A stretch of 41,658 nt of DNA, taken from positions 1 to 41,658 of IMG/VR virus record IMGVR_UViG_3300027996_000069; one strand, 5' to 3'. The notes below the pieces were generated by a model, which saw only the letters and a program-made list of their open reading frames with translations, was not told where the DNA came from and searched no databases. The position numbers and the translations under genes are program-made. This document shows positions 6,195 through 39,272 of the stretch, in pieces. The DNA comes from a virus. How positions within the stretch are numbered: position 1 is the stretch's first letter; each line of letters starts with the position of its first letter.

Positions 6195-6197
6195 AAT

Positions 6198-10798: not shown

Positions 10799-10834
10799 AA
10801 CTAATTAATTAAATTAGGAGGAGTAAAAATATTA

Positions 10835-10915
10835 ATGCTATATTATTTAAGAAAGTTGCAAGAATGTGCCAATAATATTTTGATAATAAATACTCTTCTT
10901 ATACTTTTACAATAA
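10835..10915 (+). CDS. 26-aa hydrophobic mini-ORF with strong Shine-Dalgarno
   Basis: A 26-codon frame beginning MLYYLRKLQECANN and ending in ILIINTLLILLQ. It is preceded 13 nt upstream by AGGAGG, the clearest Shine-Dalgarno sequence I saw in a phage that otherwise uses A-rich leaders. The C-terminal half is hydrophobic. It lies in the gap between portal and scaffold and overlaps the predicted promoter at 10879-10909. It could be a leader peptide, a tiny membrane peptide, or chance. Confidence 0.25.
   Translation: MLYYLRKLQECANNILIINTLLILLQ
10879..10909 (+). promoter_or_regulatory. Predicted Bacteroidota-type promoter for scaffold-capsid unit
   Basis: TTTG at 10879-10882, a 19-nt spacer, then TACTTTTA at 10902-10909 (consensus TANNTTTG with A for the final G). 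Transcription would begin near 10917, giving a leader of about 30 nt before the scaffold ATG at 10949. The same TANNTTTA variant occurs in the predicted promoter at 28314. Confidence 0.5.
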
Positions 10916-10948
10916 GTAAACCAAATACGTAATAAAATATAACTACAT

Positions 10949-12223
10949 ATGTCTGATAATTTAGATAAAGTCGGTAATTTCAGTATTCAAGATACTGTCG
11001 AAACTGGTGCAGGAGATACCCAATTATTAAATGATTTATTTGCTCCAGAAACAGCTTCAGGTAACCCTGAGGATATTGAACCTATAGTGAATGAAGTTGA
11101 ACCTCCAAAAGGAGAGGTTAACAATGATCCACCAAGAGGAAAAGATATCACACCACCAAGTGGTCCAGATGGTAAAACAGAAGAAGATAAACTTTCAGGA
11201 GAATCAATGATCGCTGACTTTTTAACAGAAAGTGAAGAGGACGTTGATGAAGATGATGATATTCAGGTAGATCCTCCAAACGATGCTTTAAAGAAAGCGA
11301 GTGAGGATTTAGATGATACAACTGATGATGAAGATGACGGTGGTAATAAATTCACAGCTTTATCAAATGACCTATTTAATTTAGGTGTATTTAATAAAGA
11401 AGAAGATGAAGAAGTTTCCATTAACACACCAGAAGAGTTTCTAGAAAGATTCAATGCTGAGAAGAAAAAAGGAGCATCTGAAATAGTTCAAAACTTCATT
11501 GGTCAATTTGGTGAAGATTACCAAAATGCATTTGATTCTATCTTTGTAAAAGGTGTAGATCCTAAACAATATTTCAATACATACAATCAAATTGTAAGTT
11601 TTACTGAAATGGATTTATCTAAAGAAAATAACCAGATGTCAGTGATGAAACAAGCACTTGCAGATCAGGGATTTGAACAAGAAGACATAGGTAAAGAAAT
11701 TGAAAGATTACAAAATTACGGTGATTTAGAAGCCGTAGCTACTAGACATCATAAGGTGTTAGTAAAGAAAGAAGCTAAGAAGCTTCAACAAATAGAAAGT
11801 GAAGCTGAACAAATACAGCAGCGAAAAACTGAAATTAAGAATCAGTATACTGCAAACGTTCAGAATATTCTTTCAGACAAGTTAAAAGAAAAAGAATTTG
11901 ATGGTATTCCAATCAATCCTAATTTAGCAAACGAACTACAAGACTTCCTATTAGTAGACAAATGGAAAACTCCTGCTGGAGAAAATCTTACTGATTTTGA
12001 TCGTTCTATCTTAGATTTAAAAAGACCTGAGAATCATGAAATGAAAGTAAAAGTAGGACTCTTGCTTAAAATATTAGAAAAAGATCCCACCCTATCTACT
12101 ATACAAAGAACAGGTGTGACTAAAAAGTCTAATCAACTGTTCGGAGAAGTAGCTAGACAAGTAACTAGAAGTAAGACAGCTTCTTCTAATAAAAAGACAA
12201 AACCTAATTCATGGTTTATATAA
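10949..12223 (+). CDS. Scaffold-like head assembly protein
   Basis: A 424-residue protein between portal and major capsid protein, where scaffolds are normally encoded. The N-terminal 165 residues are acidic, proline-rich and probably disordered (for example EEDVDEDDDIQVDPP and DDTTDDEDDGGNK). Residues about 170-310 are helical with coiled-coil character (KKEAKKLQQIESEAEQIQQR). The C-terminal segment is basic (RSKTASSNKKTKPNSWF), as expected for a tail that binds capsid protein. Scaffolds guide procapsid assembly and then leave. No protease motif is visible. Alternative: a non-scaffold inner head protein. Confidence 0.7.
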   Translation: MSDNLDKVGNFSIQDTVETGAGDTQLLNDLFAPETASGNPEDIEPIVNEVEPPKGEVNNDPPRGKDITPPSGPDGKTEEDKLSGESMIADFLTESEEDVDEDDDIQVDPPNDALKKASEDLDDTTDDEDDGGNKFTALSNDLFNLGVFNKEEDEEVSINTPEEFLERFNAEKKKGASEIVQNFIGQFGEDYQNAFDSIFVKGVDPKQYFNTYNQIVSFTEMDLSKENNQMSVMKQALADQGFEQEDIGKEIERLQNYGDLEAVATRHHKVLVKKEAKKLQQIESEAEQIQQRKTEIKNQYTANVQNILSDKLKEKEFDGIPINPNLANELQDFLLVDKWKTPAGENLTDFDRSILDLKRPENHEMKVKVGLLLKILEKDPTLSTIQRTGVTKKSNQLFGEVARQVTRSKTASSNKKTKPNSWFI

Positions 12224-16957: not shown

Positions 16958-17530
16958 ATGGCAGCCAATTTACAATTAGACATTATAGTACCTCCTAGCT
17001 ATAGTACTCTGTTACTTGCTGTTACAGATGCGTCTGTCTACCCAGACAGTCCACCAATTGTATCAGCTCCAACAATTGAAATAGAAATACCAAATTTTGG
17101 TAAAAAAATATTACCTTTTGTACCATTACAAACTAATATTTTTGGATCAGACACTTTAGGAATAACTGAAGCTGGCTGCAAACAATCCTTACCTGATGGT
17201 ATTTACAAAATAAAATATTCAATAGCTCCAGCATATTTAAATTATGTTGAGAAGACTATTATGCGTATTGATAAACTACAGGAAAAGTTTGACAATGCAT
17301 TTTTAAAGCTTGATATGATGGAGTGCGATAGTGCTCTTAGAACTCAATCTAGTGTAAATTTAAACACAATTAACTTTTTTATTCAAGGAGCAATTGCTTC
17401 AGCAAATAATTGTTCTGAACAAGACGCTCTTAAGCTATATACAAAAGCAAGCAACATGCTTAATCAATTTTTAAAAACCAATTGTGGTTGTTCTGGTAAC
17501 GGTAACAATTATATTATAAACTTTAGATAA
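16958..17530 (+). CDS. Conserved virion-associated protein, 190 aa
   Basis: A 190-residue protein with an N-terminal beta domain (LDIIVPPSYSTLLLAVTDAS, then IEIEIPNFGKKILPF and LPDGIYKIKYSIAP). A helical domain follows (VEKTIMRIDKLQEKFDNAFL, then MMECDSALRTQSSVN), and the end is Cys-containing (NCGCSGNGNNYIINF). I recognise the general pattern from phages of marine Bacteroidota but know no function. It begins 12 nt after a strong terminator and ends 1 nt before the small zinc protein, so these two are likely co-translated. It probably belongs to the virion appendage locus. Confidence 0.65.
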   Translation: MAANLQLDIIVPPSYSTLLLAVTDASVYPDSPPIVSAPTIEIEIPNFGKKILPFVPLQTNIFGSDTLGITEAGCKQSLPDGIYKIKYSIAPAYLNYVEKTIMRIDKLQEKFDNAFLKLDMMECDSALRTQSSVNLNTINFFIQGAIASANNCSEQDALKLYTKASNMLNQFLKTNCGCSGNGNNYIINFR

Positions 17531-17531
17531 A

Positions 17532-17678
17532 ATGGCTCAGTGCGCAAATTGTGGTGCAAAAGTGGGATGTGGATGTCAGTTAACAAACGGTCTATGTGCT
17601 CATTGCAACGGTAATTCTAATAAAAATTATGCTAACACCAAGATTAACAAACTGTCAGGACTGTCACAAGATTCCTGA
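17532..17678 (+). CDS. 48-aa zinc-finger-like protein overlapping the vWA gene
   Basis: A short frame that begins MAQCANCGAKVGCGCQLTNG and continues LCAHCNGNSNKN. Cysteines form CxxC (4, 7), CxC (13, 15) and CxxC (22, 25), fitting a compact zinc-binding fold. It starts 1 nt after the 190-aa gene and overlaps the start of the vWA gene by 50 nt in another frame. Such mini zinc proteins recur in Bacteroidota phage structural loci; the function is unknown. A frameshift joining it to the vWA protein is possible but not required, because the vWA gene has its own ATG. Confidence 0.65.
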   Translation: MAQCANCGAKVGCGCQLTNGLCAHCNGNSNKNYANTKINKLSGLSQDS

Positions 17679-20595
17679 TTTACTTAAGAAGATAGATTGT
17701 AAACTGGCAGAGCTTGCTAACGGTGCATACAACGATGTTGTATTCATGTTAGGTAACTGTATACCTGCTGCTACAATCGTTCAACTGTTAGCGTATAAAC
17801 GTATACTAACATTCAAATACTGCAACCCCCATTACGGAGGGTCTTTTTCAGTTAATGACATTGCTGGTAAAGTAATTCGTTTAACGTCAGGCTGTGTTAG
17901 TAGATGTAATGAACCTGTAGTATGTCAAATTACTACATGTCCTATACCTATAGTACCAAATCCAACAACTACAACAACTACTACTTCTGCAATAATTTGT
18001 GAATTTAGTGGAGATATAATATGCATTATACCAACAACTACTACAACAACTACAACAATTTTACCAGATTGTAGAGTTGAAGGATGTTTCCAAGTTAGAG
18101 AAGTTCCACCACCACCTCAGTGTGAAGAACCTTTTAATACAAATAATCCAGAAGGTTTCCCTAATGGCATAACAGGAAACGGAACAAAAACATTAACTAA
18201 TGGTGTAGTATTAACTACAACATATACAGGACCACCAATTTCTCCTACTTTGTTAACAGATCCTGGAACAGAGGAAGTGTGTGATGGAGCATTAGTTAAT
18301 ACATATAATAATACTGACAAGACTCAATTTCCTTTATTGGTAGGAGGACAACTAACTTTAGAGTTTGATCCACCTGTAGTCTCTATAGCGCTTATTAGTG
18401 CTGGATATGGATATAGTAGTTTACTAGGTGATGTAGAAACTGTAACTGTAGAATGTTTAGATCCTATTATAGGCCAGACATTACTTAGCTGTACTCCAAA
18501 TGAGGTTGCGGCTACATATGAAACAACACAAGTTAATCAAAATCAAGTTGACTTAACAGGTGTACAATTTATCCCAAGTCTACAAAGTGGAATTACTGTT
18601 ATTTCACCAGAAGCAGGAGGTATATCTAGATTAGTATTAACTAACAATAGTGATCTTCCACTAGCTGGTGTAGCATTTGATTTATATGCATGTGGTGGTG
18701 TTGCACAAACAACAACTACAACAACTACAGTTGTCCCAGAAGATACCGCATGTACAGATGGGTTGGATGTAGCATTTATAGTTGATTATACTCAATCAAT
18801 GGGTGACATAATTGATAATGTAAAATTAGGAATAGGGGGTATTGTAAATGCTATTTATACTCAGTCAGGTGCTGGTGGATATAGATTAGCTTTAATCAGT
18901 GCTGACGAAAACTCAAATGCCTTTCCTAATTATTTAAATTGTTCAGATTACATAAATTTACCTAATGTACAAAAAATTATAAATGGTCCTAATCCAAGTA
19001 TGGACCCAGCTAATACTGGAGGTTTAGATATCTATCAATTTATTACTGCTTGGGAATTATTCGGTGACAATAATCAAGCAACATTTAATCAACAACTTCA
19101 AAAATTAAATGGTGGTGTAGATGGTACATGTATTCAAATGGGTGCAGGTCTGTATGCTTCTGAACCTACTGACTATGCAGCTAAATTAGTTACAGAATCA
19201 AATTTTGCAGGAGCATTTAGAGCAAATGTTGCAAAACATATTGTTATATTAACTGATCAACTTCCAGGAAGCACTAGAGATTATTTTGACGCAGTTACTT
19301 GGCAAGGCATACAAGATATGATTACATATGCTCAGGCAAATGGAATTAAATATTTTGTTTTAGGTGAGGGTGTAGATAAAGTAGGAGGAGGTCAAGGTTC
19401 TTCACCTGTTGTAGATGGTATATATCCATGGAGAGAATTAGCAGAACAAACTGGTGGAGGCTGGAGCAATGATGCAAGTTCAGAAGAAATACAACAGCAA
19501 ATAATAGCTGGATGTAACGAAACCACAACCACAACAACTACAACTCCACCTGAAACCTGGAACCCAAATACATATTTTGTATTTACTACAGATGCAAGTG
19601 CATCATTTTACCTGGAAGCACAAAGAATTGCAGAGATATCTAGTTGTCCTGTTGTTGTAAGCAAGTTTAACGCATATCAGGAGGGGTCAGACACACAATT
19701 TGCACTAACTTCAGGAACATCAGAATCTGATTTATTATATATTGATGATCCAAGCGGTGAGGCTCCTAGTAGTAAATTCTTTTTAAAAGTAGGAATGGAA
19801 GTGACTGGTTCAGGAGTTCCTTCAGGTACAACAATAACTAGTTTTGACGGAAACTTAGTACAAGTTAATAACTCTATGACAACAAGTGCTGGTGATATAT
19901 TAACATTTACACTTAGCTCTTCAGCAAAAACTACAGACTATAATACTGAGGGTAATCTTAGAAACCTTTTACAGGATTATTATGCAACAGGATTAACTGA
20001 AGGTGAGGGTAATATAGATCCTGCAACAAATGGATCAGATGAATTTGAATCTCACTTACTCTATTCAGTAGATCTAACTGAACGTCAAATAAAATATTTA
20101 GTTAATGCAGGTGGTAATAATGCACTACCTATAGACACATCTCCTGGAGGAAAATTTGAGGGAGCAGATAATATTATATTTCAGTCTTTTGGAGATTCTA
20201 GTACAGCTTATACTGGACCTGAACCGTTCAGTGATTGGGATAATAGACAAACTCAGACAGATCCAACCATTACAGATGATGTAAGTTTTGTAAAAACTAC
20301 TATATCTAATTTAGAAACAGCTGCAGGAAATACTACAATATATAGAGGTATATTCTATACAATGTCTGGTGGTGGTAATAAAAGGGAGTATGAAGAACTA
20401 TCTACTGGATTAGAAAGTGGAGCAAATGCACAAAATGAAATGTATGGGTACACAAATGAACAACTCTTGGTAGCAGAGTCAAATGGTGAACCAACAAGAA
20501 TCACTTATGTTAGAAATGTTCCAAGTTATCCACAACCAAGTCAATGGTTTGAAAATATAAAGAATGGATTAAACCAACTAGGTTATAACTTATAA
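17629..20595 (+). CDS. Large virion adhesin with two vWA domains and Thr linkers
   Basis: A 988-residue protein from ATG 17629 (a longer GTG start at 17596 adds 11 hydrophobic residues). Order: an N-terminal Cys domain (LTNCQDCHKIPDLLKKIDCK, about residues 1-100); Thr linkers around 115 and 135; a beta-sandwich-like region (150-370); a Thr linker; a von Willebrand A domain starting with MIDAS motif DYTQS (386); a Thr linker; and a second vWA-like domain with MIDAS DASAS (655) that carries a beta insertion (TSGTSESDLLYIDDPSG). vWA domains bind ligands through a metal ion, so host-surface or matrix adhesion is likely. It lies in the appendage locus next to the protease and collar genes. Confidence 0.7.
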   Translation: MLTPRLTNCQDCHKIPDLLKKIDCKLAELANGAYNDVVFMLGNCIPAATIVQLLAYKRILTFKYCNPHYGGSFSVNDIAGKVIRLTSGCVSRCNEPVVCQITTCPIPIVPNPTTTTTTTSAIICEFSGDIICIIPTTTTTTTTILPDCRVEGCFQVREVPPPPQCEEPFNTNNPEGFPNGITGNGTKTLTNGVVLTTTYTGPPISPTLLTDPGTEEVCDGALVNTYNNTDKTQFPLLVGGQLTLEFDPPVVSIALISAGYGYSSLLGDVETVTVECLDPIIGQTLLSCTPNEVAATYETTQVNQNQVDLTGVQFIPSLQSGITVISPEAGGISRLVLTNNSDLPLAGVAFDLYACGGVAQTTTTTTTVVPEDTACTDGLDVAFIVDYTQSMGDIIDNVKLGIGGIVNAIYTQSGAGGYRLALISADENSNAFPNYLNCSDYINLPNVQKIINGPNPSMDPANTGGLDIYQFITAWELFGDNNQATFNQQLQKLNGGVDGTCIQMGAGLYASEPTDYAAKLVTESNFAGAFRANVAKHIVILTDQLPGSTRDYFDAVTWQGIQDMITYAQANGIKYFVLGEGVDKVGGGQGSSPVVDGIYPWRELAEQTGGGWSNDASSEEIQQQIIAGCNETTTTTTTTPPETWNPNTYFVFTTDASASFYLEAQRIAEISSCPVVVSKFNAYQEGSDTQFALTSGTSESDLLYIDDPSGEAPSSKFFLKVGMEVTGSGVPSGTTITSFDGNLVQVNNSMTTSAGDILTFTLSSSAKTTDYNTEGNLRNLLQDYYATGLTEGEGNIDPATNGSDEFESHLLYSVDLTERQIKYLVNAGGNNALPIDTSPGGKFEGADNIIFQSFGDSSTAYTGPEPFSDWDNRQTQTDPTITDDVSFVKTTISNLETAAGNTTIYRGIFYTMSGGGNKREYEELSTGLESGANAQNEMYGYTNEQLLVAESNGEPTRITYVRNVPSYPQPSQWFENIKNGLNQLGYNL

Positions 20596-20609
20596 AGTAA
20601 GTAAAGAAA

Positions 20610-23408
20610 ATGATAATATTTATAACATTAAGTTTCGCAGGTGCAGAGTCAGGTCCTTTTGATCTGTACTCTGATGTTGATGGTTTTACTGCACCATTTG
20701 CACAAAATATAAGCAAGGCTGATCTTTTAGGAGGTTATGAAGTAGAAGCTCCTGATGGAACAACAACTGTTAGATTATTAGATTTAGGTGCAGAATGTAC
20801 ACCTTTTACAACAGATATATACAACTGTTCTACACCAAATTGTGATTTCTCTGGGGAGATTCTTTGTCCTTATGAGAATTGTGACTTTAGTGGAACAATT
20901 ATTTGCCCTGCTGCAGATTGTAATTTTACAGGAGAGATTCTTTGTCCTGTAACTACTACTACTAGTACAAGTACAAGTACAACAACTACGACAATTGCAC
21001 CAACCACTACAACAACAACTACTGCTTACCCACTATTCTCTCCATGTACTTGGTCAACTTATGGTGGTAATCCAGGAGAAATTGCTGTATACGACTTTAA
21101 CACTAATTCATCAACTGCTGTGCTAGTACCTAATGACTTTACTCAAACTGTAGGAATAAACAGACCAATATGTTCTACAGAAGATAAATTATGGTTAGCT
21201 AGCATTGTGCAAGAAAATGACACAAAGAACGATAATGATGATATAGTTTACATTAGAGAATGGGACATAAATACATCTGGTGCTACACCAACTCTATCTT
21301 ACGTTAGAGAAATGACAATTATGAGTGGAGGTCTCTTTTCTGGAAGTGAAAGTAGCATATCTACAATAGCTGTAACTTCTGATAATCAAACAATAATTGT
21401 AGGATTTGGTGAAAGAGGTTCTAACTTTAGTGCTTACTCTTGGGATATATCTCAAGCTGGTAACATTACATTAAATCAGAGTAATAGTTTAGACCAAGGA
21501 TCTTTAAATGTTTTTGGAAATACTCCAGGTGCAGAAAAAGAACTTACAGGAATGTTTATTACTAATGATGATAACGTTATTGTTTCTTGTAGGGTTTATT
21601 CAGATTCCCTATATAGAAGTAATCGCATTAAGCAACTTAGCGGTCTCACACTTAGTAACTGGCCAATAGAGCAGCAAAATGTACCTTTAATTAATTTACA
21701 AGACGCAGGTGTTCCTGACTTTACTAACAGTTGGACTTACCAAAGTAAAGCTATGCCTATTTGGGGTGTAGATGGATTACTACAAGTAATTCAACCAGAA
21801 ACTCTTGAGGTTTATAACATAGCTCAAACATCACCATATTCTGCAACACTTGTAGATACAGTTGCTGATGATACAGTTTGGATACACACATCAACTGGTT
21901 GTGCAAATGTTGACATTAAATATGAAGATTGTGAAGGAGCTGCATGGATACCTGCGCTAACTGAAATTGTTGGTGGTGAGGTTGTATATACAGGACCTGC
22001 TACATTTACATATGCAGGAATGCAAGTTATAGCTAGCGCTCAAGGAAACCTTCAATCTCTAGGCTCAGGAACTGCTGCTGGTGGTGTAGCTCAAAATGGC
22101 TGTAGTGGAATATCAAATCCCGGTCCTGTACCAAACGTAATATCTAGAGTTCAAGGTAATGATTTTAGTATCACTTTAACATTCCCACAACCTGTTAACA
22201 ATATTCCTATTAGAGCTGGTGTACTTAATACTCAACCTGACTTTAGTTATGGAGATGTTTATGAGTTTAATACAAATACAGGGATACCTACTATATCTAT
22301 AAGCACTGGTTGTAATGTTCAGGTGCAAGGAAATAAAATAGGTGGAGGTGTACCAGACTATACTACAGAAGGTGATGGAGAATTTATTATATCTTCTGAT
22401 GAAAACTATACAGTTCTAACTATGTCTGGAGATGCTCCAACAGGAGGACCATTATTACTAGGTTGTTTAGAAGTTGAAAAAAACTGTACATGGGCATTCC
22501 CTGCTAGAGGATCAGCTGGAACTGATACAGTATTTATATATAACCCAATAAATAATACATACTTACCACAATCCCTTCCAAATGGGTTTGGGGGGTTATT
22601 CGATTATAAGAGAAGTAATTTTAGCTCAGAGAACACTTTGTTTTATACGTCTATAGACACTGCAACTGATATTATTACTATAAAAAGATACGATATATCA
22701 CAAGGTTTAACGTATATTGATGAGGTAGTAACACCTACTGCTCCTGCTGGTGAAGCTTGGCTTGGAACAAATCTTTTTGCGATAGATGATAACACTATTT
22801 TACTAAATTCGTATAATCCGTCAAACGTTAATTACAGTGGTAAAATATATAAACTAGTTATAAATACAGATGGTACAACTACAATAACGTTCTTGTTTCC
22901 TTTGAATCATAAAAAAAGTTACTGGACAGGTCCAATGTTTTCAAATAATAAAATAATATATACATATCAAGATATAGAAGTTTTTAGTGATCAGTATAGA
23001 TTAGCTCAAATAGAATATCCTAGTGGAGCTACAGAGTTGGAAATAGATACATCATCTTTACAAGTAATTGGTACATCTCCAGATGGATACTTAATAAACA
23101 ACTCTTATAATACATCATTTGTTTTTGAAGATAAAATGTATTTACTTGTAAGTGGTATTAAGTTATATGAAATAGATACAACTTTTCCTTATAATGCTAC
23201 GGTAATAAATGCAAATACAGCATTTTATGGTGAAGGAGTATTTAATAATTCATATCTTAGAGCTTTTTCTAATTCAGGTGAATGTAGTTCAAACTTATCT
23301 TTCATTCCAACAAATGAAACTACAACAACTACTACTAGTGTAACAACATTACCTCCAGGTTCTCCAAATACAATATGGATAAAGTTTGACCCTATAACAC
23401 CATCGTAA
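20610..23408 (+). CDS. Multidomain appendage protein: FDLYS domain, Thr linker, two propeller-like regions
   Basis: 932 residues. Residues 1-70 are an FDLYS domain (SGPFDLYSDVDGFTAPFAQ). Next come three short repeats of the form C-x-F-S/T-G-x-I-x-C-P (about 78-113), and Thr/Ser linkers (115-145). Two long regions opening with CTW (about 150-430 and 630-890) contain repeated strand motifs ending in D/N-I/T-type turns and resemble beta-propellers; they enclose a beta-sandwich-like middle (430-630). A Thr linker and a short end close the protein. Likely a receptor-binding or surface fibre protein. Domain folds are judged by eye, so the propeller call is tentative. Confidence 0.6.
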   Translation: MIIFITLSFAGAESGPFDLYSDVDGFTAPFAQNISKADLLGGYEVEAPDGTTTVRLLDLGAECTPFTTDIYNCSTPNCDFSGEILCPYENCDFSGTIICPAADCNFTGEILCPVTTTTSTSTSTTTTTIAPTTTTTTTAYPLFSPCTWSTYGGNPGEIAVYDFNTNSSTAVLVPNDFTQTVGINRPICSTEDKLWLASIVQENDTKNDNDDIVYIREWDINTSGATPTLSYVREMTIMSGGLFSGSESSISTIAVTSDNQTIIVGFGERGSNFSAYSWDISQAGNITLNQSNSLDQGSLNVFGNTPGAEKELTGMFITNDDNVIVSCRVYSDSLYRSNRIKQLSGLTLSNWPIEQQNVPLINLQDAGVPDFTNSWTYQSKAMPIWGVDGLLQVIQPETLEVYNIAQTSPYSATLVDTVADDTVWIHTSTGCANVDIKYEDCEGAAWIPALTEIVGGEVVYTGPATFTYAGMQVIASAQGNLQSLGSGTAAGGVAQNGCSGISNPGPVPNVISRVQGNDFSITLTFPQPVNNIPIRAGVLNTQPDFSYGDVYEFNTNTGIPTISISTGCNVQVQGNKIGGGVPDYTTEGDGEFIISSDENYTVLTMSGDAPTGGPLLLGCLEVEKNCTWAFPARGSAGTDTVFIYNPINNTYLPQSLPNGFGGLFDYKRSNFSSENTLFYTSIDTATDIITIKRYDISQGLTYIDEVVTPTAPAGEAWLGTNLFAIDDNTILLNSYNPSNVNYSGKIYKLVINTDGTTTITFLFPLNHKKSYWTGPMFSNNKIIYTYQDIEVFSDQYRLAQIEYPSGATELEIDTSSLQVIGTSPDGYLINNSYNTSFVFEDKMYLLVSGIKLYEIDTTFPYNATVINANTAFYGEGVFNNSYLRAFSNSGECSSNLSFIPTNETTTTTTSVTTLPPGSPNTIWIKFDPITPS
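20841..20948 (+). repeat. Three C-x-F-(S/T)-G-x-I-x-C-P repeats
   Basis: Within the 932-aa protein the units CDFSGEILCP, CDFSGTIICP and CNFTGEILCP follow each other at 13-residue spacing. A related unit, CEFSGDIICIIP, sits between two Thr linkers of the preceding vWA protein (near 17998). Each unit may be a small disulfide or metal-bound turn that caps linkers. Confidence 0.7.
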
Positions 23409-23415
23409 ATAAATT

Positions 23416-24738
23416 ATGAAAGTAACACAAAAAATAAAAGATAAATTAAGAGAGGTTCGTAGATCAAATCTAGGACTCACTTCTGTGTGGTATGGATATA
23501 AAGTATCTAATGGAGTCAATACAGGAGAACTAGGTATTATATGTGGTGTTAAAAAGAAAAAACCTTTATCAGAACTATCAGCTGAAGAAATGATACCAAT
23601 TGAAGTAAAAGTTGGAAGTCAGACCATTAAAACGGATGTTATAGAAATTACTCAACCAGAGGTACTTACTTGCAACGATGGCTGTGGTGAAAATACAGGA
23701 TTAGCATCAGTACCTAATAGATCATATACAAGACCTATTAAAGGTGGTTTATCTATAAGTAGTAATAACACTAACACAAGTGTAGGTACATTTGGTTTAG
23801 TTGTAAAAGATATTGCTACAGGAGCAATATTAGGACTTAGTAATAATCATGTTACAATTGCAGATGCATTTTATACAGACTCTAGAAATTTATCTGGAGT
23901 GGTACAAAATGATTATGATCCAACAAATAACATATACCAAGGAACCGAAGGAACTGTTCCTGGAGGTAATTGGGCAGAATATTTTACCTCAGCAAATATA
24001 ATTGGAAGAGGTGTGAGATATGTTCCTGTACATCCAAAAACTTCAGGAATAACAAATAACGTAGATGCTGCATTATTTTCATTAACCGAAAATGTTATAG
24101 ATCTTAATGAAAGTTTTAAACAAGTAGGATTAGATTCAGTTATAACAAGTAATCTCCCTTTTGCTACAACTTCGGAAATAGACAATGCTCTTGCAAGTAA
24201 TCCAGAATTATATAGTTCAGGAAGAACAACAGGTCCTAAAGGTGGAACTAATTGTCCTATGAGAATCTTTACAACAACAGGAGAATTTAATATTTCTTAC
24301 AAAAGACAAGGAGTATCAACTCTTATTGAAATGGAAGATATTATAGGATATTTCAAACCTACTTTAGAAAATCCTACATCACAGTCTCCGGCTGAAGGTT
24401 TTTGTTGTAATCCAGTAAGAGGTGGAGATTCAGGATCAGGTTTAATTGCTAATATAGGAGGAACTATAAAGGTGATTGGATTAGTTTTTGCTGGAGGTAA
24501 TTCTGGATGTGATGGTGGAGCTAATTCATACCAAGTGGGCTGGGCTTGCAGAATAGATGAAGTAGCTAGTCAATTAGGAATTACCAACCTTAGTGCCAGT
24601 GATTTACTAACTATTGTGAATGAAAGTTCAATAGAATACGTAACAGAAATTGGAGGAAGTGATCAAATAAATAAAGAATGTGGAGGAGCAACTTACTGGC
24701 AAGTTGGTCTAACAGACACATTAGATAACCCTTGTTAA
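23416..24738 (+). CDS. Trypsin-like serine protease
   Basis: A 440-residue protein with a complete chymotrypsin-type catalytic triad: His145 in LSNNHVTIAD, Asp217 in GITNNVDAALF, and Ser339 in RGGDSGSGL, each in the canonical local context (NH, DxAL, GDSG). The N-terminal 110 residues are a basic helix and a strand region without a signal peptide. The C-terminal 60 residues are beta-rich with Cys. It sits between the propeller-like protein and the collar protein, all in the same direction, so it is probably part of, or processes, the appendages. Roles could be maturation of fibre proteins or digestion of host surface proteins. Trypsin-fold proteases are uncommon in phage tail loci. Confidence 0.85.
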   Translation: MKVTQKIKDKLREVRRSNLGLTSVWYGYKVSNGVNTGELGIICGVKKKKPLSELSAEEMIPIEVKVGSQTIKTDVIEITQPEVLTCNDGCGENTGLASVPNRSYTRPIKGGLSISSNNTNTSVGTFGLVVKDIATGAILGLSNNHVTIADAFYTDSRNLSGVVQNDYDPTNNIYQGTEGTVPGGNWAEYFTSANIIGRGVRYVPVHPKTSGITNNVDAALFSLTENVIDLNESFKQVGLDSVITSNLPFATTSEIDNALASNPELYSSGRTTGPKGGTNCPMRIFTTTGEFNISYKRQGVSTLIEMEDIIGYFKPTLENPTSQSPAEGFCCNPVRGGDSGSGLIANIGGTIKVIGLVFAGGNSGCDGGANSYQVGWACRIDEVASQLGITNLSASDLLTIVNESSIEYVTEIGGSDQINKECGGATYWQVGLTDTLDNPC

Positions 24739-24750
24739 AATATAAATACC

Positions 24751-25860
24751 ATGTCAAATAATTGTTCAAATTGCTATAACGGATGTACTGAAATAACATC
24801 AGACAAATGCGTTAAATATACAGGACTAGATGTTCCTGTCCTAGGAATACAGAATGGAGACTCTCTATCATATGTAGAGCAGTCAATAATAGGTTTTCTA
24901 ACTTCAACTCTTGATGGAACAGGAATATTTCCTGTAGTTCCACCAACGGACATATGTCCAAGTCTACAAGCAGAACTAGATGATTGTAATCCCCTTTCAT
25001 TAAATAACTACTTAACAGGAATAGTAAAGTTTTTATGTAGCCTCGAACAGCAAATTACTAATAGTGAACCAGAAGGTGGTGGTGGATCTGGTGTAACATA
25101 TAATCTAAGTTGCATCACTAGTGGTATTACACCAGTTGATCCAACATCAACAGAAGCAGTTTTACAAGCTGTTATAGATAAAGTTTGTTTACTAGCGGAA
25201 GATCTAACAAATTTTATTACCTTTGTAGATAATACGTATGTTAAAATATCAGAGATTAATACGTATATTCAAAACTATATACAAAATGATCCAAGTCAAC
25301 AGCTTATTGCTAACAGGATGGTTCCTTATTCAATTGTAGCTGGCTATGGTGGCTCAGCATTTCTTAATAATTTTGATGCTAGTGGAGCAGGTATAGGAGA
25401 TTGGGTTAGAATATTTTTATGTAATGGTGGCAATGGAACTCCTGATTTAAGAGGTAGGGTGTTAGTTGGAACTAATGACGGAAGTATGTTAGGTCCAGCA
25501 ATGTCACCAGTAGTTCAACCATCATCAACTAATCCAACTTACTCAATAGGAAGTCCTAATGGCTTAAATGCTGTTGCGTTAGTTACTGGAGAACTTCCAG
25601 CTCACACTCACAGTGTTACTGATCCTGGTCACGATCACACATTCCCAGCAAGAAATGGTACAGTGGTTGGAGATTATATACAACAAGCAGGTGGAGGTAC
25701 TCCTAGTGATGATACATATCAAATTCAAACCACTGCTTCACCTAACAATATTACATCATCTTCTGCAACAAGTATTAGTGTTAATTCAACTGGTGGAGGA
25801 CAGGCTCATATGAATTATCAACCTGGACTTGGAGTATATTATATAATTTACATACCTTAA
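24751..25860 (+). CDS. Phage tail collar-domain protein
   Basis: A 369-residue protein. The N-terminus is Cys-rich (NNCSNCYNGCTEITSDKC), followed by KYTGLDVPVLGIQNGDSL, the same layout as the VYDGPTTPCTNIEACDTL segment of the 108-aa protein downstream. A helical or coiled-coil middle follows. The C-terminal 165 residues are a tail collar domain (PF07484-like): GYGGSAF...GNGTPDLRGRVLVGTND and LPAHTHSVTDPGHDH are diagnostic. Collar domains form trimeric fibre tips, with His residues that can bind metal. It is thus a likely receptor-binding fibre. Confidence 0.85.
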   Translation: MSNNCSNCYNGCTEITSDKCVKYTGLDVPVLGIQNGDSLSYVEQSIIGFLTSTLDGTGIFPVVPPTDICPSLQAELDDCNPLSLNNYLTGIVKFLCSLEQQITNSEPEGGGGSGVTYNLSCITSGITPVDPTSTEAVLQAVIDKVCLLAEDLTNFITFVDNTYVKISEINTYIQNYIQNDPSQQLIANRMVPYSIVAGYGGSAFLNNFDASGAGIGDWVRIFLCNGGNGTPDLRGRVLVGTNDGSMLGPAMSPVVQPSSTNPTYSIGSPNGLNAVALVTGELPAHTHSVTDPGHDHTFPARNGTVVGDYIQQAGGGTPSDDTYQIQTTASPNNITSSSATSISVNSTGGGQAHMNYQPGLGVYYIIYIP

Positions 25861-25871
25861 AATAAAACAAT

Positions 25872-26198
25872 ATGGCATACTTACCTGTAAACCCTTGCTG
25901 CACTGATGTAGTTCTAAATAGTTCTTGTGGATGTACTTCGACTTGCAACTGCTCCTCAAACTCTTGTGGAACAAAAGGTCCTTTATCAAGCACAGTTGTG
26001 TATGATGGACCTACAACTCCATGTACAAATATAGAGGCATGTGACACATTAAATGTTGCACTGTCTAAAATTGATCAACTTCTTTGTTCGTTACAAGTTC
26101 AACAAGTTAAAAATACTCAAGAAATTGCTGCAATGAAAGCACAAATAATTGATATAAACAATCAAATAACAACCATTAATAATAACTGCTGTTCATAA
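25872..26198 (+). CDS. Cys-rich coiled-coil appendage protein, 108 aa
   Basis: The first 35 residues are full of cysteines (NPCCTDVVLNSSCGCTSTCN). They are followed by the anchor-like segment VYDGPTTPCTNIEACDTLNV and ALSKIDQLLCSLQV, then a coiled coil (NTQEIAAMKAQIIDINNQIT) ending CCS. It is effectively the N-terminal half of the collar protein without the collar tip, so it may be a shorter fibre, a chaperone or a linker forming trimers with it. It starts 11 nt after the collar gene and is followed 2 nt later by an FDLYS gene. Confidence 0.7.
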   Translation: MAYLPVNPCCTDVVLNSSCGCTSTCNCSSNSCGTKGPLSSTVVYDGPTTPCTNIEACDTLNVALSKIDQLLCSLQVQQVKNTQEIAAMKAQIIDINNQITTINNNCCS

Positions 26199-26200
26199 TT

Positions 26201-26449
26201 ATGACTGTACTTTTAACATTAACTATCGCAGGTGCTGATTCTACAGTGTTTGATTTATATTCAAACATTGATGGATTTAGCACTGCTTTTGAAACAAGTG
26301 TACCTAAAGCTAGCTTATTAGCTGGCTATAGTTCTACATTAGTTCCAGACTACACTAGCACTGTAAGAGTGCAAAGTACAGGTAAATGTGTTAATTATAT
26401 AGATATAGTGTTAGAAAGCACAACAACAACAACAACTTTAATTCCTTAA
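26201..26449 (+). CDS. FDLYS-domain protein ending in a Thr linker, 82 aa
   Basis: Almost the whole protein is one FDLYS domain: LTLTIAGADSTVFDLYSNID, then GFSTAFETSVPKASLLAGYS, STVRVQSTGKCVNYIDI. It ends with ESTTTTTTLIP and a stop, as if a linker had lost its downstream module. It is closely similar by eye to the start of the next gene (26453) and of the 932-aa gene. Likely a small virion protein or anchor. No signal peptide is seen. Confidence 0.7.
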   Translation: MTVLLTLTIAGADSTVFDLYSNIDGFSTAFETSVPKASLLAGYSSTLVPDYTSTVRVQSTGKCVNYIDIVLESTTTTTTLIP

Positions 26450-26452
26450 GAC

Positions 26453-27682
26453 ATGTTAATACAAATAACCTTAACCATTCCCCCTGGAGGCGCTGCTGGA
26501 CCATTTGATTTATTTTCAAATGCAGATGGATTCGCATCTCCATTTGAAACACAAGTTTCAGCTGCTGATTTAGTAGCTGGATATACAGTTACACTTCCTA
26601 TGGGAGCAACCATTATACGAGTTTGCTCTACTGGTACATGTGAGAATTGTATTGACTTGCCAACTAATTGTCCAACAACTACTAGTACGACAACTGTTGC
26701 ACCTACCACAACAACAACAACAACGGTAGCTCCAACAACAACTACTACAACAACTGTAGCACCCACGACAACTACAACAACTACTGTAGCACCTACGACA
26801 ACAACTACAACAACTGTTGCTCCTACTACCACTACTACAACTACAGTGGCACCAACTACAACAACCACTACAACAGAAAATCTTCATAAGTTAACATGGG
26901 ATCTTTTGACAACCACACCACTAGCAATAGATACTGTCAGTATAGAAATACTTGCAAATAGTGTAGTAGTAGCTACAGGTTCAATTACTGGTGCAGCTAA
27001 CCCTCTTGGAGGCGATGTTCTAATTCAAAATGGAGCTAATGTAGTAATAAATGTAACAAATAGCAAAGCAGGAACTAATGCATTTATAAATAAAGCAACT
27101 TTAGACAGTGTTGTTGTATTGAATGATGCACAAACTGCAAGTGGTTCACTTGTTTCTAGCTTTAATTTTACTAAAACAATTGGTACACAGTATGTTGATG
27201 TAATAGGAGACATTAATGCACCTACAACAACAACTACAACCACCGTTGCACCAACAACCACAACAACAACTGTAGCACCGACAACCACTACTACTACAGC
27301 AGCACCTACTACCACTACTACTACAACCAGTGCTGTAGCAAATTGTGATTTAGGTACTATAACAGCAACTGGGCCTGCACAAAGTACTACTACTACTACT
27401 ACAGTGGGTGGGTTGTATCAGGGGTTGATGAGTATGAGCCCACAATCTAGTTCTATAGCTGCATGTAGCCAAAGTACAATTCTTGATGTTTGGGTAACTA
27501 ATGTTAATAGCTCTGGTTCACCAACTCTTAGCTCTTTAATTTACACAAATATTTCAGGCACTACTCTTTTCCAAGGAAATGGAGGATACCACATTTTTAG
27601 CAGTACCCCACAACCAGGAGTTGAATATGTGTATACAGTTTCAGCTGGTGGTCAAGTTGGTGGACCAATAAGTCTTTGTTAA
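26453..27682 (+). CDS. FDLYS-domain protein with long Thr-linker arrays, 409 aa
   Basis: Residues 1-70 are an FDLYS domain (AGPFDLFSNADGFASPFE, then IIRVCSTGTCENCIDL). About six 10-residue repeats of VAP plus seven Thr follow (26675-26874). A beta domain comes next (about residues 142-255), then a second Thr array (27221-27328), a short Cys segment and a C-terminal beta domain of about 90 residues. The codons for Thr vary (ACA, ACT, ACC, ACG), so the protein repeat, not only the DNA, appears to be maintained. Such mucin-like linkers would be extended and could be glycosylated. Probable fibre or decoration protein. Confidence 0.7.
   Translation: MLIQITLTIPPGGAAGPFDLFSNADGFASPFETQVSAADLVAGYTVTLPMGATIIRVCSTGTCENCIDLPTNCPTTTSTTTVAPTTTTTTTVAPTTTTTTTVAPTTTTTTTVAPTTTTTTTVAPTTTTTTTVAPTTTTTTTENLHKLTWDLLTTTPLAIDTVSIEILANSVVVATGSITGAANPLGGDVLIQNGANVVINVTNSKAGTNAFINKATLDSVVVLNDAQTASGSLVSSFNFTKTIGTQYVDVIGDINAPTTTTTTTVAPTTTTTTVAPTTTTTTAAPTTTTTTTSAVANCDLGTITATGPAQSTTTTTTVGGLYQGLMSMSPQSSSIAACSQSTILDVWVTNVNSSGSPTLSSLIYTNISGTTLFQGNGGYHIFSSTPQPGVEYVYTVSAGGQVGGPISLC
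26675..26874 (+). repeat. Tandem VAP-T7 repeat array (about 30-bp units)
   Basis: ACN-rich 30-bp units encode TTTTTTTVAP about six times. Units differ mainly at third codon positions. The opposite strand is open over the same stretch only because the complement encodes Val/Gly runs. Confidence 0.85.
27221..27328 (+). repeat. Second Thr-repeat array in the same gene
   Basis: Encodes APTTTTTTTVAPTTTTTTV and similar units of 9-10 residues, shorter and more variable than the first array. Length differences between the arrays fit gain and loss of units by slippage or recombination. Confidence 0.8.
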
Positions 27683-27708
27683 TCTATAAATCTTAAAAAA
27701 ATAATAAT

Positions 27709-27945
27709 ATGGCATTTCAAGCAAACATAAAAATAACAGGACTAGTTGGAGCTGGATCAGGACCTTGTGATATATATCAAAGCAGTGATTTCTTCTCAAC
27801 CCCTATAGCCACTGGTGTATCAATAACATCCCTACAGGCACCAGCTGGGGTTGACGTTGCGTGTAATCCAGGTACAACAATACTCAGAATTCAGAACACT
27901 GGAACGTGTACAAACTTTGAGAATGTATCAATCATGTTTTCATAA
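27709..27945 (+). CDS. FDLYS-like domain protein, 78 aa
   Basis: A single-domain protein: IKITGLVGAGSGPCDIYQSS, then DFFSTPIATGVSITSL, and TTILRIQNTGTCTNFENVSI. It keeps the layout of the FDLYS domain (GP-CD-IY, PIATGVS, TILRI-NTGTCTN) but with CDIYQ in place of FDLYS, so it is a divergent member. Without linker or extra module it may be a minor subunit that assembles with the longer FDLYS proteins. Start ATG 27709 follows an A-rich leader. Confidence 0.65.
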   Translation: MAFQANIKITGLVGAGSGPCDIYQSSDFFSTPIATGVSITSLQAPAGVDVACNPGTTILRIQNTGTCTNFENVSIMFS

Positions 27946-27951
27946 TTTGAT

Positions 27952-28176
27952 ATGACAGGCTTAATAAAAATAAATACAATAGGTACAGACCTTCACTTGT
28001 TTAACATCTACTCAGACATAAATAACTTCACAGCTCCATTTGCAACAAATGTAACGAGAGATGAATTATTAGGAAAGGACGGATATGTAACAGATCAAGT
28101 ACCTAATCTGTCAACAATTATTAGGGTTATGGCAATCGATAAAGGTATATATTTAGATATTGATATTAATATATAA
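27952..28176 (+). CDS. FDLYS-like domain protein, 74 aa
   Basis: A single-domain member: INTIGTDLHLFNIYSDINNF, then TAPFATNVTRDELLGKDGYV, and STIIRVMAIDKGIYLDIDI. The FNIYSDINNF-TAPFATNV core aligns by eye with FDLYSDVDGF-TAPFAQNI of the 932-aa protein. The usual Cys after the RV strand is missing. It is the last gene of the appendage locus and is followed by a strong terminator. Confidence 0.65.
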   Translation: MTGLIKINTIGTDLHLFNIYSDINNFTAPFATNVTRDELLGKDGYVTDQVPNLSTIIRVMAIDKGIYLDIDINI

Positions 28177-28346: not shown

Positions 28347-29588
28347 ATGTCGTACTCTGAAGATTTACTCGTCCAGTTAAAATCAATGTTAGCTTGGAAG
28401 AAGAGTAAAAAGTTTTACGCTGAGAAGTTGCAAATTACAGAAGATGAAGTGAATGATTTGCTAAAAGATATTAAAAAGGAAAGTAAAGATCCTTTAGAAG
28501 AATTTACAAAAGAGTCAAGTAAGTTTGAAGAATTAGAATTTGTAAAGAAGGTAAACAAAGAAAAGGGTACAATAGAAAGTACTGTTACTTTAGACTTTGA
28601 ACCAAAAAGCGAAATAGATTTAGCTGCATTACATAAGATAGATCTATCTAAATATATAATTACTAACTACTGGTCTAAACTACTCCCTAGTGGAAAGTTT
28701 ACATCTTCGGTATTTTCTAAAAGAAAACAACCTAAAGATTATACACCAGAAGACTTTAAACAGTTTTTAGAAAACTATAAGTCAAACTACATTCCAACCC
28801 CTGCACCAGAAAGAAATGATCACAAAGATCTTGTAGATATTGAGTTATCTCTTTCAGATTTTCATTTAGCAAAGCGATATGTAGATGGGGATAATGATCC
28901 TGGAACTAGAGCTCTTAGGTTTATTAACGTAGCTCAAAAACTAATAGACAAAGTTAAATCAGTATATGATATAAATAGAGTGGTATTTCCTATATCAAAT
29001 GATTTCTTTCATACAGATAATTATCAAAATCAAACAACAAATGGAACACCTCAAGATGTCATATTAGATTATGCTACTGAGTATGAATTAGGATTTTCCA
29101 TTCTTGTAGACACCATTAAGATGTTAAAGTCAAACTCTTTGGATGTTCAAGTCATATTGGTTCAAGGTAATCATGATAGAACTAAATCATTTTATTTAGC
29201 ACATGCGCTAGATGTATACTTTCAAGATGAGCCAGATGTATTTTTTGATAGAGAAGAAGGCTTAGTAAAAGCAACTGTAATAGGTAATACGTTCATTGGT
29301 TTCCATCATGGTAATTGTAAAATAGAGGCACTGCCTTTGTTATTTGCAACACACCCAAAGTATAGTAAATGGTTTGGAGATTCTACATATAGAGAAGTTC
29401 ACACTGGTGATAAACATCACTATATGGCTAAAGAAATAAAGGGGGTTAGAATACAACAAATGCCTAGTTTATCTGGTACAGATAGATGGCATAAAGATAA
29501 CAACTTTGTACACAGTGTACGAGCTGCCCTAGCTTTAGTCTATGACTTTAAAGTAGGCAAGGTGGCTGAATTTGAAGAAAGAATATAA
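28347..29588 (+). CDS. Calcineurin-like metallophosphoesterase
   Basis: A 413-residue protein. The N-terminal 150 residues are helical and charged with an HTH-like start (SKKFYAEKLQITEDEVNDLL). The catalytic domain carries the metal motifs in order: D171-F-H173 (SLSDFHLAKR), N218-D219 (in place of GD; ISNDFFH), GNHD at 274-277, HH at 320-321 (GFHHGN) and H352...H357-H358 (HTGDKHH). These bind two metal ions and act on phosphomonoesters or phosphodiesters, possibly nucleic acid. Similar enzymes occur among structural genes of Bacteroidota phages. It is first in the tail operon, directly after a promoter; the substrate is unknown. Confidence 0.85.
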   Translation: MSYSEDLLVQLKSMLAWKKSKKFYAEKLQITEDEVNDLLKDIKKESKDPLEEFTKESSKFEELEFVKKVNKEKGTIESTVTLDFEPKSEIDLAALHKIDLSKYIITNYWSKLLPSGKFTSSVFSKRKQPKDYTPEDFKQFLENYKSNYIPTPAPERNDHKDLVDIELSLSDFHLAKRYVDGDNDPGTRALRFINVAQKLIDKVKSVYDINRVVFPISNDFFHTDNYQNQTTNGTPQDVILDYATEYELGFSILVDTIKMLKSNSLDVQVILVQGNHDRTKSFYLAHALDVYFQDEPDVFFDREEGLVKATVIGNTFIGFHHGNCKIEALPLLFATHPKYSKWFGDSTYREVHTGDKHHYMAKEIKGVRIQQMPSLSGTDRWHKDNNFVHSVRAALALVYDFKVGKVAEFEERI

Positions 29589-31785: not shown

Positions 31786-34700
31786 ATGGCTAAACAGCAA
31801 TCAAAAAAAGATTCTGAAAGTAACAAGAAGCTTGGTAATATTCGCTTAAACCCAGCAGCAGCACGAGCAGGATTAAACTTAGATAGTTCAATTTCTCAAG
31901 TTGGTCCTGGAAGATTAACATATGCGTTAAATGCTGCAGTTGAAAACTTTGACTCTAGTTCTGTTAATTATCAGAATGAGCCAGGTAATGAGTTATGTCT
32001 TGATTTTCCTACAGGTTATAAACTTATAGGTTCTCATTTTATTCCTGAGAAACGTAAGAATATATTCTTTTTAGTTAATCCATCTACAGGAGGTAGTGAG
32101 ATTGGATTTATGGACAATAACAATTGTCAATACCAATCCCTTGTAAATGCTCCTTGTTTAAACTTTAATATAAAAAATCCTATTCCTAAGATTGTACACA
32201 GGATAACAAATTGTACAACAGAACTTTATTGGACAGATGGGATTAACCCTAGAAGGTATTTAGATATAGAAAACATACCTTATAAAATTGAACTTGTTTC
32301 AGATAGTCTTTGCGATGCTGTAGAGACTGAAGTTTTAGACTGTAATCAACTTAAGATTCAGCCTAACTTTAGAATACCTCAACTAATGATAACTCAAGTT
32401 AGAAACATAGGTAATTTAACAGCAGGGACATATCAGTTTGCAGCACAGTATTCAGATGCAGTCGGTAATGAACTTACTTCATATTACTCTGTAACAAATC
32501 CACTTCCTATCTCTGACGAGTTTAAAACAACTGTAAACTTTGATTATCAAGTAGGTAAGTCTATTGTTGTAGGTGTATCTAATTTAGATTTATCAGGACA
32601 GTTTGAGTATTATAACTTAGCTGTAATAAAAACAATTAATAATATATCTTCTGTAGAGCTTGTAGGGACATATAGTATTGAAGAGTCTTCAAGAGAAATA
32701 ACTTACACAGGTGGAGATGAAACAGCTATAAAACTTTCAATGATAGACATCTTTGAAAAGTTTCCATATTATGATATAGCTCAAGATGTTACAGCTGTAC
32801 AAGATGTTCTTGTGTGGGATAACCTTACATCTATTGATAGAATTAATTATCAATCTATTGCAAGTCAAATAACTCTTAATTGGGAAACACATAGAATCCC
32901 TGCAGGTGAAAATTATGCAGATGAAATAAATGCTGTAGATTTACGTGGATACATGCGTGATGAAGTGTATGCTTTTGAAGTAGTATTCTTATTAAAGAAC
33001 GGTAAACAGACAGATGGTTTTCATATTCCAGGAAGAGAAATAGGAGGTAGTGAAAACTTTCCAGATGTTCCTGATACTAACAATGATTTTATTGGAGAGC
33101 CTGATTACTTTACAGGAACAACAGGGTATAAACCTTATTGGAAAATTTACAATACAGGATCTGTTACAGGGATATCAGAAGGGCATTCCTCTGAGCCTAA
33201 CTATAAAGGGCCTTGGGAATATGGTGAATTTTCATACTGGGAGTCAACAGAAGAATATCCTTGTGAAGAAGATGTGTGGGGAGACTTAGCTGGGCAACCA
33301 ATTAGACATCATAAATTTCCAGATGTATTAATAAGTCCTATCATTGAAAATGGAGAGATTGTTTATGACAATAATAAAATTGTACCTGCAATGCAGGATG
33401 ATGCAATATTTCCTATTGGAGTTAGAATAGACAATACCCAAATAAATTCCTTAATACAAACTTCTGACTTAACCCAAGATCAGAAAGATGATATTGTTTC
33501 TTATAAGATTGTAAGAGCTGATAGAGGAACTAATAAGTCTGTTATTGCAAAAGGTATACTTAGAAATGTAAATAAGTATACTAGAGATGAACAAGATTAT
33601 TTCTACCCTAACTATCCATATAATGATTTAGGTACAGATCCATATGTGCTAGCTAACAATAATGCCTGGTCAGCTGACTCTGAAGCATGGTTAATATATC
33701 TACCTTCAGAAGAAAATGATCTGAGTTCACTTTCAAGCATTATTAATAATATTCAAGTTGAAGTAAATGGAACTTCAGGTGTATTTGAATACACTAGTGC
33801 TTTAAATGGTAAGGTGACACAAGCAGAAATACAATTAGATGAAGTTGTTGAAATTTGCTCATTGACAAGACCTGTTCCACTTTTAGGTAAGATGGTAATT
33901 GGTCCTGGTAATTATGATGTGTGGAGATGTTATACTGATAATCAACTTACTTCTTGTGGGCATGAAATAGAATGGAGAGATCCATTTACTGACTGGAATG
34001 ATACACCTTATGTTTCTGAAGTTTACAGGACTCGAACCCTGAATGACGATGGTTTTCTTGGTATATACGGTAGTGAAAAGGTTACAGTAATTACTAAGGT
34101 AGGGGATGAACCATATCGTATAGATTGCCATCGAGTTTGGATTGGTTATTGGACAGATTGTTGTAGAGACAGAAAACAATTAATGGATCCGCAAGTGTTT
34201 GGTCCTGGAGAAGTAGAAGATCCTCCAGGGGTTAAAATAAGTTGGGATGACGAAGGGAATAGTCAGAGCAATAATAGTTGGAGAAATAGAAGAACAAGAA
34301 GTAGAAGATCCTCTTTAGGTTGTAAAGATGAAAAACCTCAACCTTCAATTGAAGAACAAGAAGAGATTTCATACAGACAAGTATTTAATTCACCAGAAAC
34401 ATCTTTTGGTCAACCATTCTTAGGGGGCGTGTTAAAACTTGAGAGTGTAATGTTTGGTGCAGGTAAAGCTCACTGGGTGCAAGTTAAAGATAATGCTAAC
34501 TACAAGCTTCTTTCTAAAGAGGCCCAACAAGATGCGTTGGATAGTTCAAGAACTATGGCTGTACTAAGCAATCCAGCAAGTTTGGGTGTGATGTTTACAG
34601 CATATCAAGCATATTTAACTATCTATGTAAATGGTATTACAAGAAAGAATTATGCAATGTCATATAATTCTAGAGCTAACTATGATTATTCTTATAACAT

Positions 34701-38408: not shown

Positions 38409-39272
38409 ATGAATATAGTAATAAAATTAACAGCCTCTGGACCAAATTTAGGTCCCTTTGATATACTTTCTGAAACTAGAAAGGTGTTGAGAAGCGGTGT
38501 GTCTAGAATTGAATTATCAGATGGAATTACTGTTACTGTTACTGCAAAAGAAGATAACTTTATTATATTAAAATCTAATGGTAACTGTGCTATAGAAAAA
38601 GTTATACAAATAGAAGACATATCTACTAGTGATTATAACAATCTTAATTATAGTCAAATTGTTACAGGTTGCTTGTGGACACATTTAAAAAATCCACAAA
38701 TATATAATTACTACTATGGAAAAATAGAACCATACATTATAGAGTATCCATTTTCATATAGCTATAATGATGAACTACTACAAAATGTAAAAGACTACAG
38801 TAAGGTATATAAATACTTACCGTCTGATGTTGGATCTTTTGACACTAATAGTAAAATACAAATAGATAATAAATGGTTTAACAAAGCTGTATTATATAAC
38901 GGTCAACAATCTACAGGATTGTTAAAGCTTGTTCCTAAACCAGAGAATAATTTGTCAGCATATATGCAATATCCTATATTAAATACTGACAGTAAAACTA
39001 TCACATTTTCAAAAAGTGATAACTTCTATCAGTATAACACATTCTGGGCATTACAAGTAGATGATGAATTACCATTATTTAATAGCTCTTGTGAATCACT
39101 GTCTATAGATAAAGTGATTAATCAATCTAATATGGATTATGGAAATAGATCATTTAAAAAAGCAACATTAAGAGCTAAGAATTTAAAGGTTAGACACATA
39201 CTTGATGACTCATCAACAACACATATAGTAAGTCAGTTTATTGTAACACCATCACAAATATCATATAAATAA
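38409..39272 (+). CDS. FDLYS-like domain fused to a detached muzzle C-terminus, 287 aa
   Basis: Residues 1-75 are a divergent FDLYS-like domain (IKLTASGPNLGPFDILSET, then NFIILKSNGNCAIEKVIQI). Residues about 90-287 (CLWTHLKNPQIYNYYYGKIE, EYPFSYSYNDELLQNVKDYS, KSDNFYQYNTFWALQVDDEL, NMDYGNRSFKKATLRAKNLK, THIVSQFIVTPSQISYK) look like the region that, as far as I recall, normally forms the end of crAss-like muzzle proteins. The ATG lies 2 nt after the muzzle stop, so the two would be made together. I infer that the muzzle has been split and its end now carries its own N-terminal domain. Length comparison with a standard muzzle would test this. Confidence 0.65.
   Translation: MNIVIKLTASGPNLGPFDILSETRKVLRSGVSRIELSDGITVTVTAKEDNFIILKSNGNCAIEKVIQIEDISTSDYNNLNYSQIVTGCLWTHLKNPQIYNYYYGKIEPYIIEYPFSYSYNDELLQNVKDYSKVYKYLPSDVGSFDTNSKIQIDNKWFNKAVLYNGQQSTGLLKLVPKPENNLSAYMQYPILNTDSKTITFSKSDNFYQYNTFWALQVDDELPLFNSSCESLSIDKVINQSNMDYGNRSFKKATLRAKNLKVRHILDDSSTTHIVSQFIVTPSQISYK

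Follow-up and report, generated by a model that had tools for sequence, protein, structure and literature searches.

The window analysed here is the whole of a 41.7-kb virus contig, and positions 16958-28176 of it are occupied by ten co-directional genes in a single run. These genes, two modules within the second of them and one related gene farther downstream are as follows.

16958-17530, plus strand: conserved structural protein at the tail-hub position (THA, gp38 of crAss001); phrog_31752, virion structural protein.
17629-20595, plus strand: anchor A (about residues 12-105 of the 999-aa ORF) followed by Thr-linked modules X, vWA1 and vWA2; an 88-aa stand-alone protein in many relatives.
18687-19541, plus strand: vWA1 cassette, including both flanking poly-Thr linkers; PF00092; 92.9% nucleotide match in relative L138.
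19573-20592, plus strand: vWA-like module 2, assigned by motif only, with invariant DxSxS.
20610-23408, plus strand: F-anchored 932-aa protein with F domain, Thr linkers and two propeller-like copies around module Y, by module comparison.
23416-24738, plus strand: P, trypsin-like protease, directly downstream of the propeller-Y gene; phrog_20754 'protease', E 1.3e-17.
24751-25860, plus strand: B, tail-collar-type fibre with a Cys-rich N-terminal anchor, the non-swapping member; phrog_8763/8469, E 1e-18/1e-15.
25872-26198, plus strand: C, Cys-rich anchor protein, bare here (108 aa), with tips up to 1542 aa in relatives.
26201-26449, plus strand: F domain and short Thr tail, by F domain match.
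26453-27682, plus strand: F-anchored 409-aa protein with two Thr-rich linker-repeat stretches, module M409 and tip T409, by module comparison.
27709-27945, plus strand: F domain alone, 78 aa, by F domain match.
27952-28176, plus strand: F domain alone, 74 aa, by F domain match.
38409-39272, plus strand: muzzle-tip protein, in which an F-like N-terminus precedes the terminal domain of the Fpv3 muzzle, by HMM.

An earlier note on this DNA had treated the whole run as one locus lying between head and tail genes. The run is indeed co-directional, but its first gene is a conserved structural gene outside the variable block. The variable core is 17629-28176, with a tail-hub-like gene on one side and tail ring and muzzle genes on the other, so that the block lies inside the tail genes. 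The ORF of the second gene was listed from a GTG at 17596; in relatives the start corresponds to ATG 17629, which is probably the start in the window as well.

Most of the domains named in that note could be recognised. For the first of its two vWA domains, PF00092 scored 26.3 bits (cut-off 23.8), and the domain was present in seven of seven relatives; in its MIDAS, the DxTxS and the later Asp are invariant, while the middle Thr is without clear conservation. The second (residues 660-999 of the 17596 product) did not hold up as a vWA domain to the same degree: it gave no match in Pfam or PDB, and what remains is the DxSxS motif. Likewise, the propeller-like regions of the 20610 product are two related copies, but they gave no match in Pfam or PDB that would identify a beta-propeller. 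The trypsin-like protease was confirmed by the phrog_20754 match and by H145, D217 and the S339 of GDSG, which are invariant and in conserved order in 11 relatives; P is thus predicted to act as a chymotrypsin/trypsin-like serine protease. The tail-collar fibre is upheld by the phrog matches of B, and the Cys-rich proteins by an N-terminal Cys-rich domain common to the 24751 and 25872 products; this C-type domain also starts gp047 of Cellulophaga phage phi4:1, which was detected by MS/MS. The proteins labelled 'FDLYS' are five (20610, 26201, 26453, 27709 and 27952), each with the F domain at its N-terminus. Sequence-profile searches of the PDB gave nothing useful for A, C, F, the hub-position protein, the 379-aa protein that precedes the run, vWA1, vWA2, the propeller-like module or the protease.

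The TerL, portal and MCP of the contig are of crAss type; these three, the ring proteins and the muzzle are homologous to their crAss counterparts and in crAss order, as expected of a Crassvirales-like phage. No near DNA match to the window was found among cultured phages. By MCP, the nearest cultured relatives are a Leptolyngbya phage, Lbo-JY46 (26%), and phages of Flavobacterium, among them Fpv3 (22%). To our knowledge, crassviruses have been described as infecting Bacteroidota only. Lbo-JY46 (L134 in our set, PP438436.1), the closest cultured relative by both its crAss-like MCP and its muzzle, has a cyanobacterium as its recorded host. A 13.4-kb contig of this phage group (L226) was also found in a Tissierellales MAG; Tissierellales as host was discarded, since this single MAG match is weak host evidence and mis-binning is probable.

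The genes around the block follow the order of crAss001: ring proteins gp34, gp40 and gp43 have their counterparts in 14954, 29591 and 30806, gp33 in 13958, and the muzzle, gp44, in 31786. Fpv3 gives better matches than crAss001 for most of these neighbours. By this order, the 16958 gene and anchor A sit at the place of gp38 and gp39, the hub proteins that make up the collar on which fibres dock in crAss001 (PMC10172136). Homologues of the 16958 product were found in phi4:1 (gp056, MS/MS-detected, E 1e-15) and Lbo-JY46 (E 7e-22). Its AlphaFold (AF2) model (mean pLDDT 86) matched a structural protein of phi17:2 (TM 0.79/0.88, E 2e-14); its matches to proteins of crAss-like phages from the gut were weak. 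Profile comparison detected no sequence similarity of the 16958 gene or anchor A to gp38/gp39, and gp38 was not among the PDB matches of the AF2 model. Position therefore fits a hub of crAss001 type (THA/THB), whereas likeness to gp38/gp39 in sequence or fold was not found, and the hub identity rests on synteny and on distant crAss-like structural proteins.

Next to the block, on its downstream side, lies an exonuclease-like gene (EXO, 28347-29588), which is missing from L226. It occurs as two deep alleles (27-34% versus 61-100% identity) in genomes whose MCPs are more than 90% identical, an allele replacement beside the fibre block.

The window's proteins contain 30 runs of at least four Thr, compared to a mean of 0.66 after shuffling. 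Twenty of these are in the block, one is at the C-terminus of the 379-aa protein and nine are in the 2206-aa muzzle, in agreement with what had been noted of these two proteins. Over 108 loci, runs of at least five Thr had a sharp mode at exactly seven residues (486 of 1008), compared to 86 of eight and 7 of nine, which suggests selection on the protein. Thr codon use in the runs was close to that elsewhere, and adjacent Thr codons were identical at a frequency of 0.363, compared to 0.380 after shuffling, that is, without excess. With no codon signal in the Thr runs, the idea that the linker DNA is selected for recombination was set aside. Poly-Thr joints in loci of this kind were not described in the open-access papers that we searched.

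The comparison set consisted of 108 non-identical relatives, all metagenome contigs, of which 74 had complete loci; their MCPs, where matched, were 90 to 98% identical to that of the window. Across these relatives the order of the scaffold was always A, optional F and P, B, C, F and EXO, with zero to two copies of anchor C and zero to four of anchor F per locus. Lengths varied widely for A (88-1033 aa, the bare 88-aa protein being found in many genomes), C (80-1542 aa) and F (72-1435 aa), while B was about 370 aa long; in L109 the B gene (5679-6811) is in two frames of 222 and 130 aa, by frameshift or sequencing error. The tails of B were homologous in 1770 of 1770 pairs. Those of F matched in 28 of 39 pairs (72%) with anchors at least 90% identical, and in 16 of 27 pairs (59%) with anchors 80 to 90% identical. 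Among the tips of relatives, matches were found to the lectin-like Lcl_C, Fib_succ_major, collagen with an S74 chaperone, BNR, DUF285 and the DUF5122 propeller. The window's clade has an unusually large repertoire, including an A protein with a 900-aa vWA stalk and the propeller-Y protein paired with the protease.

A breakpoint was defined as a loss of DNA homology between otherwise homologous genomes, and was placed at a linker if it lay within 15 nt of a Thr/Ser linker. This was so for 158 of 162 breakpoints in A, 85 of 99 in C, 51 of 64 in F and none of 60 in B, compared to 11 to 21% of random positions. These counts include related pairs; when distinct sites were counted, 73 of 74 (A), 67 of 80 (C) and 32 of 43 (F) were at linkers. 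Blast may extend through similar linker DNA, so that the true break could be anywhere in the linker, which leaves the conclusion unchanged. In F genes, homology was often back near the stop codon. The linkers are thus the sites of exchange. The proposal that they serve as recombination joints holds in this sense, but the codons of the Thr runs give no signal that they promote recombination, and linkers as drivers are kept as a rival reading only. The relatives also display the conserved N-terminal domains, variable linkers and swapped C-terminal modules that a modular display system had been predicted to have, and a collinear, equally conserved block, which would have spoken against it, was absent among the 108.

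Modules moved not only between genomes but also between anchors. The vWA1 cassette of the window is 92.9% identical in nucleotides to positions 14225-15082 of L138, where it forms the end of an F-anchored 1435-aa protein; the backbone of the two genomes is 85.4% identical, and the vWA1 similarity starts and stops at the two poly-Thr linkers. In the A protein of L138, the vWA1 slot holds a module of the M409 type (38% over 66 aa by direct comparison; HMM match over residues 405-504). A further module, of 61 aa, is F-anchored in L101 and C-anchored in L102 (84% amino acid and 81% nucleotide identity). Counting non-identical carriers, X was on A in 12, F in 4 and P in 1; PROP, the propeller-like module, on F in 16 and A in 7; Y on F in 16, A in 10 and C in 1; M409 on F in 19, A in 2 (L138 and L144) and P in 1 (L147); and T409 on F in 20, C in 10 and A in 7. 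The modules of the 932-aa protein are A- or C-anchored in L145-L151, L159, L179 and L099, and propeller-like modules on A anchors came up repeatedly, in contigs of several separate metagenome projects. Whether the propeller-Y gene is F-, A- or C-anchored, the protease gene lies directly downstream of it (28 of 28 loci); in L149 the pair is behind B and C instead of before them.

The F domain had no match by sequence in PHROGs, Pfam, 50,697 phage records or the PDB. Its structure model is an Ig-like sandwich, for which Foldseek gave weak Ig/FN3-like matches only in the PDB. F was present in 13 of 13 relatives examined and absent from crAss001, Fpv3, Lbo-JY46 and L137. It does recur in the window at the start of the muzzle-tip protein, where the F HMM gave an E value of 1e-4, and down to 2e-11 in orthologues; the C-terminal 195 aa of this protein resemble the end of the Fpv3 muzzle (E 1e-13). 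Since residues 1724-1764 of the Fpv3 muzzle align with residues 1653-1693 of the window muzzle, the muzzle gene of the window is split relative to that of Fpv3. The main muzzle gene (31786-38406) carries some 510 aa of additional, Thr-linked sequence at its end. Because F forms the N-terminus of the muzzle-tip gene, we suggest that it may dock on the muzzle or distal tail.

The location of the block at a hub/ring position, and the annotation of its phi4:1 homologues as virion proteins, make it most likely that an uncultured phage of the crAss-like kind has its tail-fibre locus here. The GenBank record of phi4:1, which is related to phi17:2, annotates gp056 together with gp045-gp055 as far as the muzzle as virion proteins from MS/MS, gp044 being the single exception; these data cover homologues and syntenic products, not F-anchored proteins. 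Location on the tail of the virion is accordingly supported by homology or synteny. The combinatorial modular display proposed in the earlier note is borne out by the 108 relatives, with the display placed on the tail rather than on a generic surface.

We consider it very probable that the block is a locus of tail-fibre cassettes, made of docking domains, Thr stalks and interchangeable tips which are exchanged by recombination. Three small docking domains (A, C/B and F) would attach fibres to the tail, and on their Thr-rich stalks would sit exchangeable tips for receptor binding or enzymatic action. Whole tips would be swapped by recombination, both between related phages, presumably during co-infection, and among genes of the locus, with the break on the 5' side in the stalk and that on the 3' side in another stalk or close to the stop codon; breaks so placed would preserve both frame and docking. 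From their domain types, the tips may bind host surface polymers, while the protease, tethered to the virion by its propeller-Y partner, could trim a host surface protein. A bolder version is possible, though we hold it only tentatively: that of a combinatorial adhesin system in which the tips are common to several unrelated docks and any tip fits any dock, by way of a standard stalk of some seven Thr. Such a system would include the protease/propeller pair as a two-gene cassette, the protease being tethered to the virion by its propeller-like partner, and would take the place that the DGR has at this locus in epsilon crAss-like phages.

Could the linkers themselves drive the exchange, as ACN-repeat DNA selected to be a recombination hotspot? 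The concentration of breakpoints at linkers would fit, as would the fact that linker DNA of different genes aligns at 75 to 90%. We nevertheless think this unlikely, given the ordinary codon use of the runs, a mode at seven residues that suggests selection at the protein level, and the consideration that viable recombinants survive at domain boundaries anyway. Assembly chimeras at low-complexity repeats could mimic module exchange, and the relatives are indeed metagenome contigs with breakpoints in repeats. We give this very little credence: cassettes differ by 7 to 19% in DNA between carriers, junctions are in frame, the propeller-on-A type comes from contigs of separate projects, and the protease linkage holds across anchors without exception.

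A location on the head was also considered, with the proteins decorating the capsid like gp21 and gp29 of crAss001, which has two types of capsid fibre (PMC10172136). The 379-aa protein, at the position of capsid auxiliary protein gp36, also ends in poly-Thr, and F has an Ig-like sandwich shape, as does the tip of gp29. Such head fibres seem improbable all the same, for the block occupies the hub/ring position, tail-fibre-like proteins in Lbo-JY46 and phi4:1 begin with C-type anchors, and the muzzle-tip protein has F as its N-terminus. As to variation of the tips by targeted mutagenesis, csAssE-Sib (L228, OR575929.1) has an annotated DGR (VR, TR and reverse transcriptase, 7838-11817) in its syntenic fibre gene, a target gene of the same kind, and tips of relatives include Lcl_C, Fib_succ_major and similar types. 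In the window's group, however, whole domains are replaced and not points changed, and a search of 23 contigs, the longest of 114 kb, gave no reverse transcriptase (PF00078) while the controls were positive, which makes a DGR here barely credible.

Anchor-plus-tip modularity and recent domain shuffling are established for phage RBPs (PMC10684548). Such RBPs, including those of Klebsiella phages (PMC8262889), share with the present locus a conserved anchor, a variable tip and recent exchange between close relatives; here, in contrast, at least three unrelated anchor families per locus share modules, exchange crosses gene families, and the joints are homopolymeric Thr stalks. crAss001, with its gp38/gp39 hub and gp22 and further fibres (PMC10172136), has the same order of capsid, ring, hub-position and muzzle genes, but its fibre genes lie between portal and MCP instead of between hub-position and ring genes, and anchors A, C and F are undetectable in it. 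The block of Cellulophaga phages phi4:1 and phi17:2 (gp046-gp056) has the same position, a homologous hub-position protein and a C-type anchor in gp047, whereas its syntenic proteins have no runs of at least four Thr, no F domain and no match to a vWA or protease module. Finally, csAssE-Sib, an epsilon crAss-like phage, has a syntenic tail-fibre locus with a homologous hub-position protein (E 1.7e-12), diversified by reverse transcriptase and variable repeat where the window's phage group uses cassette exchange. What appears new in the window's group is the F domain, the protease/propeller-Y cassette, the use of a standard Thr stalk for the joints, and a pool of modules shared by several unrelated anchors.

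Tip swapping is probably how such viruses keep changing their binding targets. More than 100 close relatives agree in their capsid genes but differ in their tips, which makes it possible to measure how fast, in which direction and at which joints exchange takes place. The locus further provides F as a new docking domain, a linker of standard type, and a protease that moves together with a propeller-like partner. Overall, these observations suggest that crAss-like phages have two routes of host-range diversification, by DGR and by cassette exchange, at the same genomic position.
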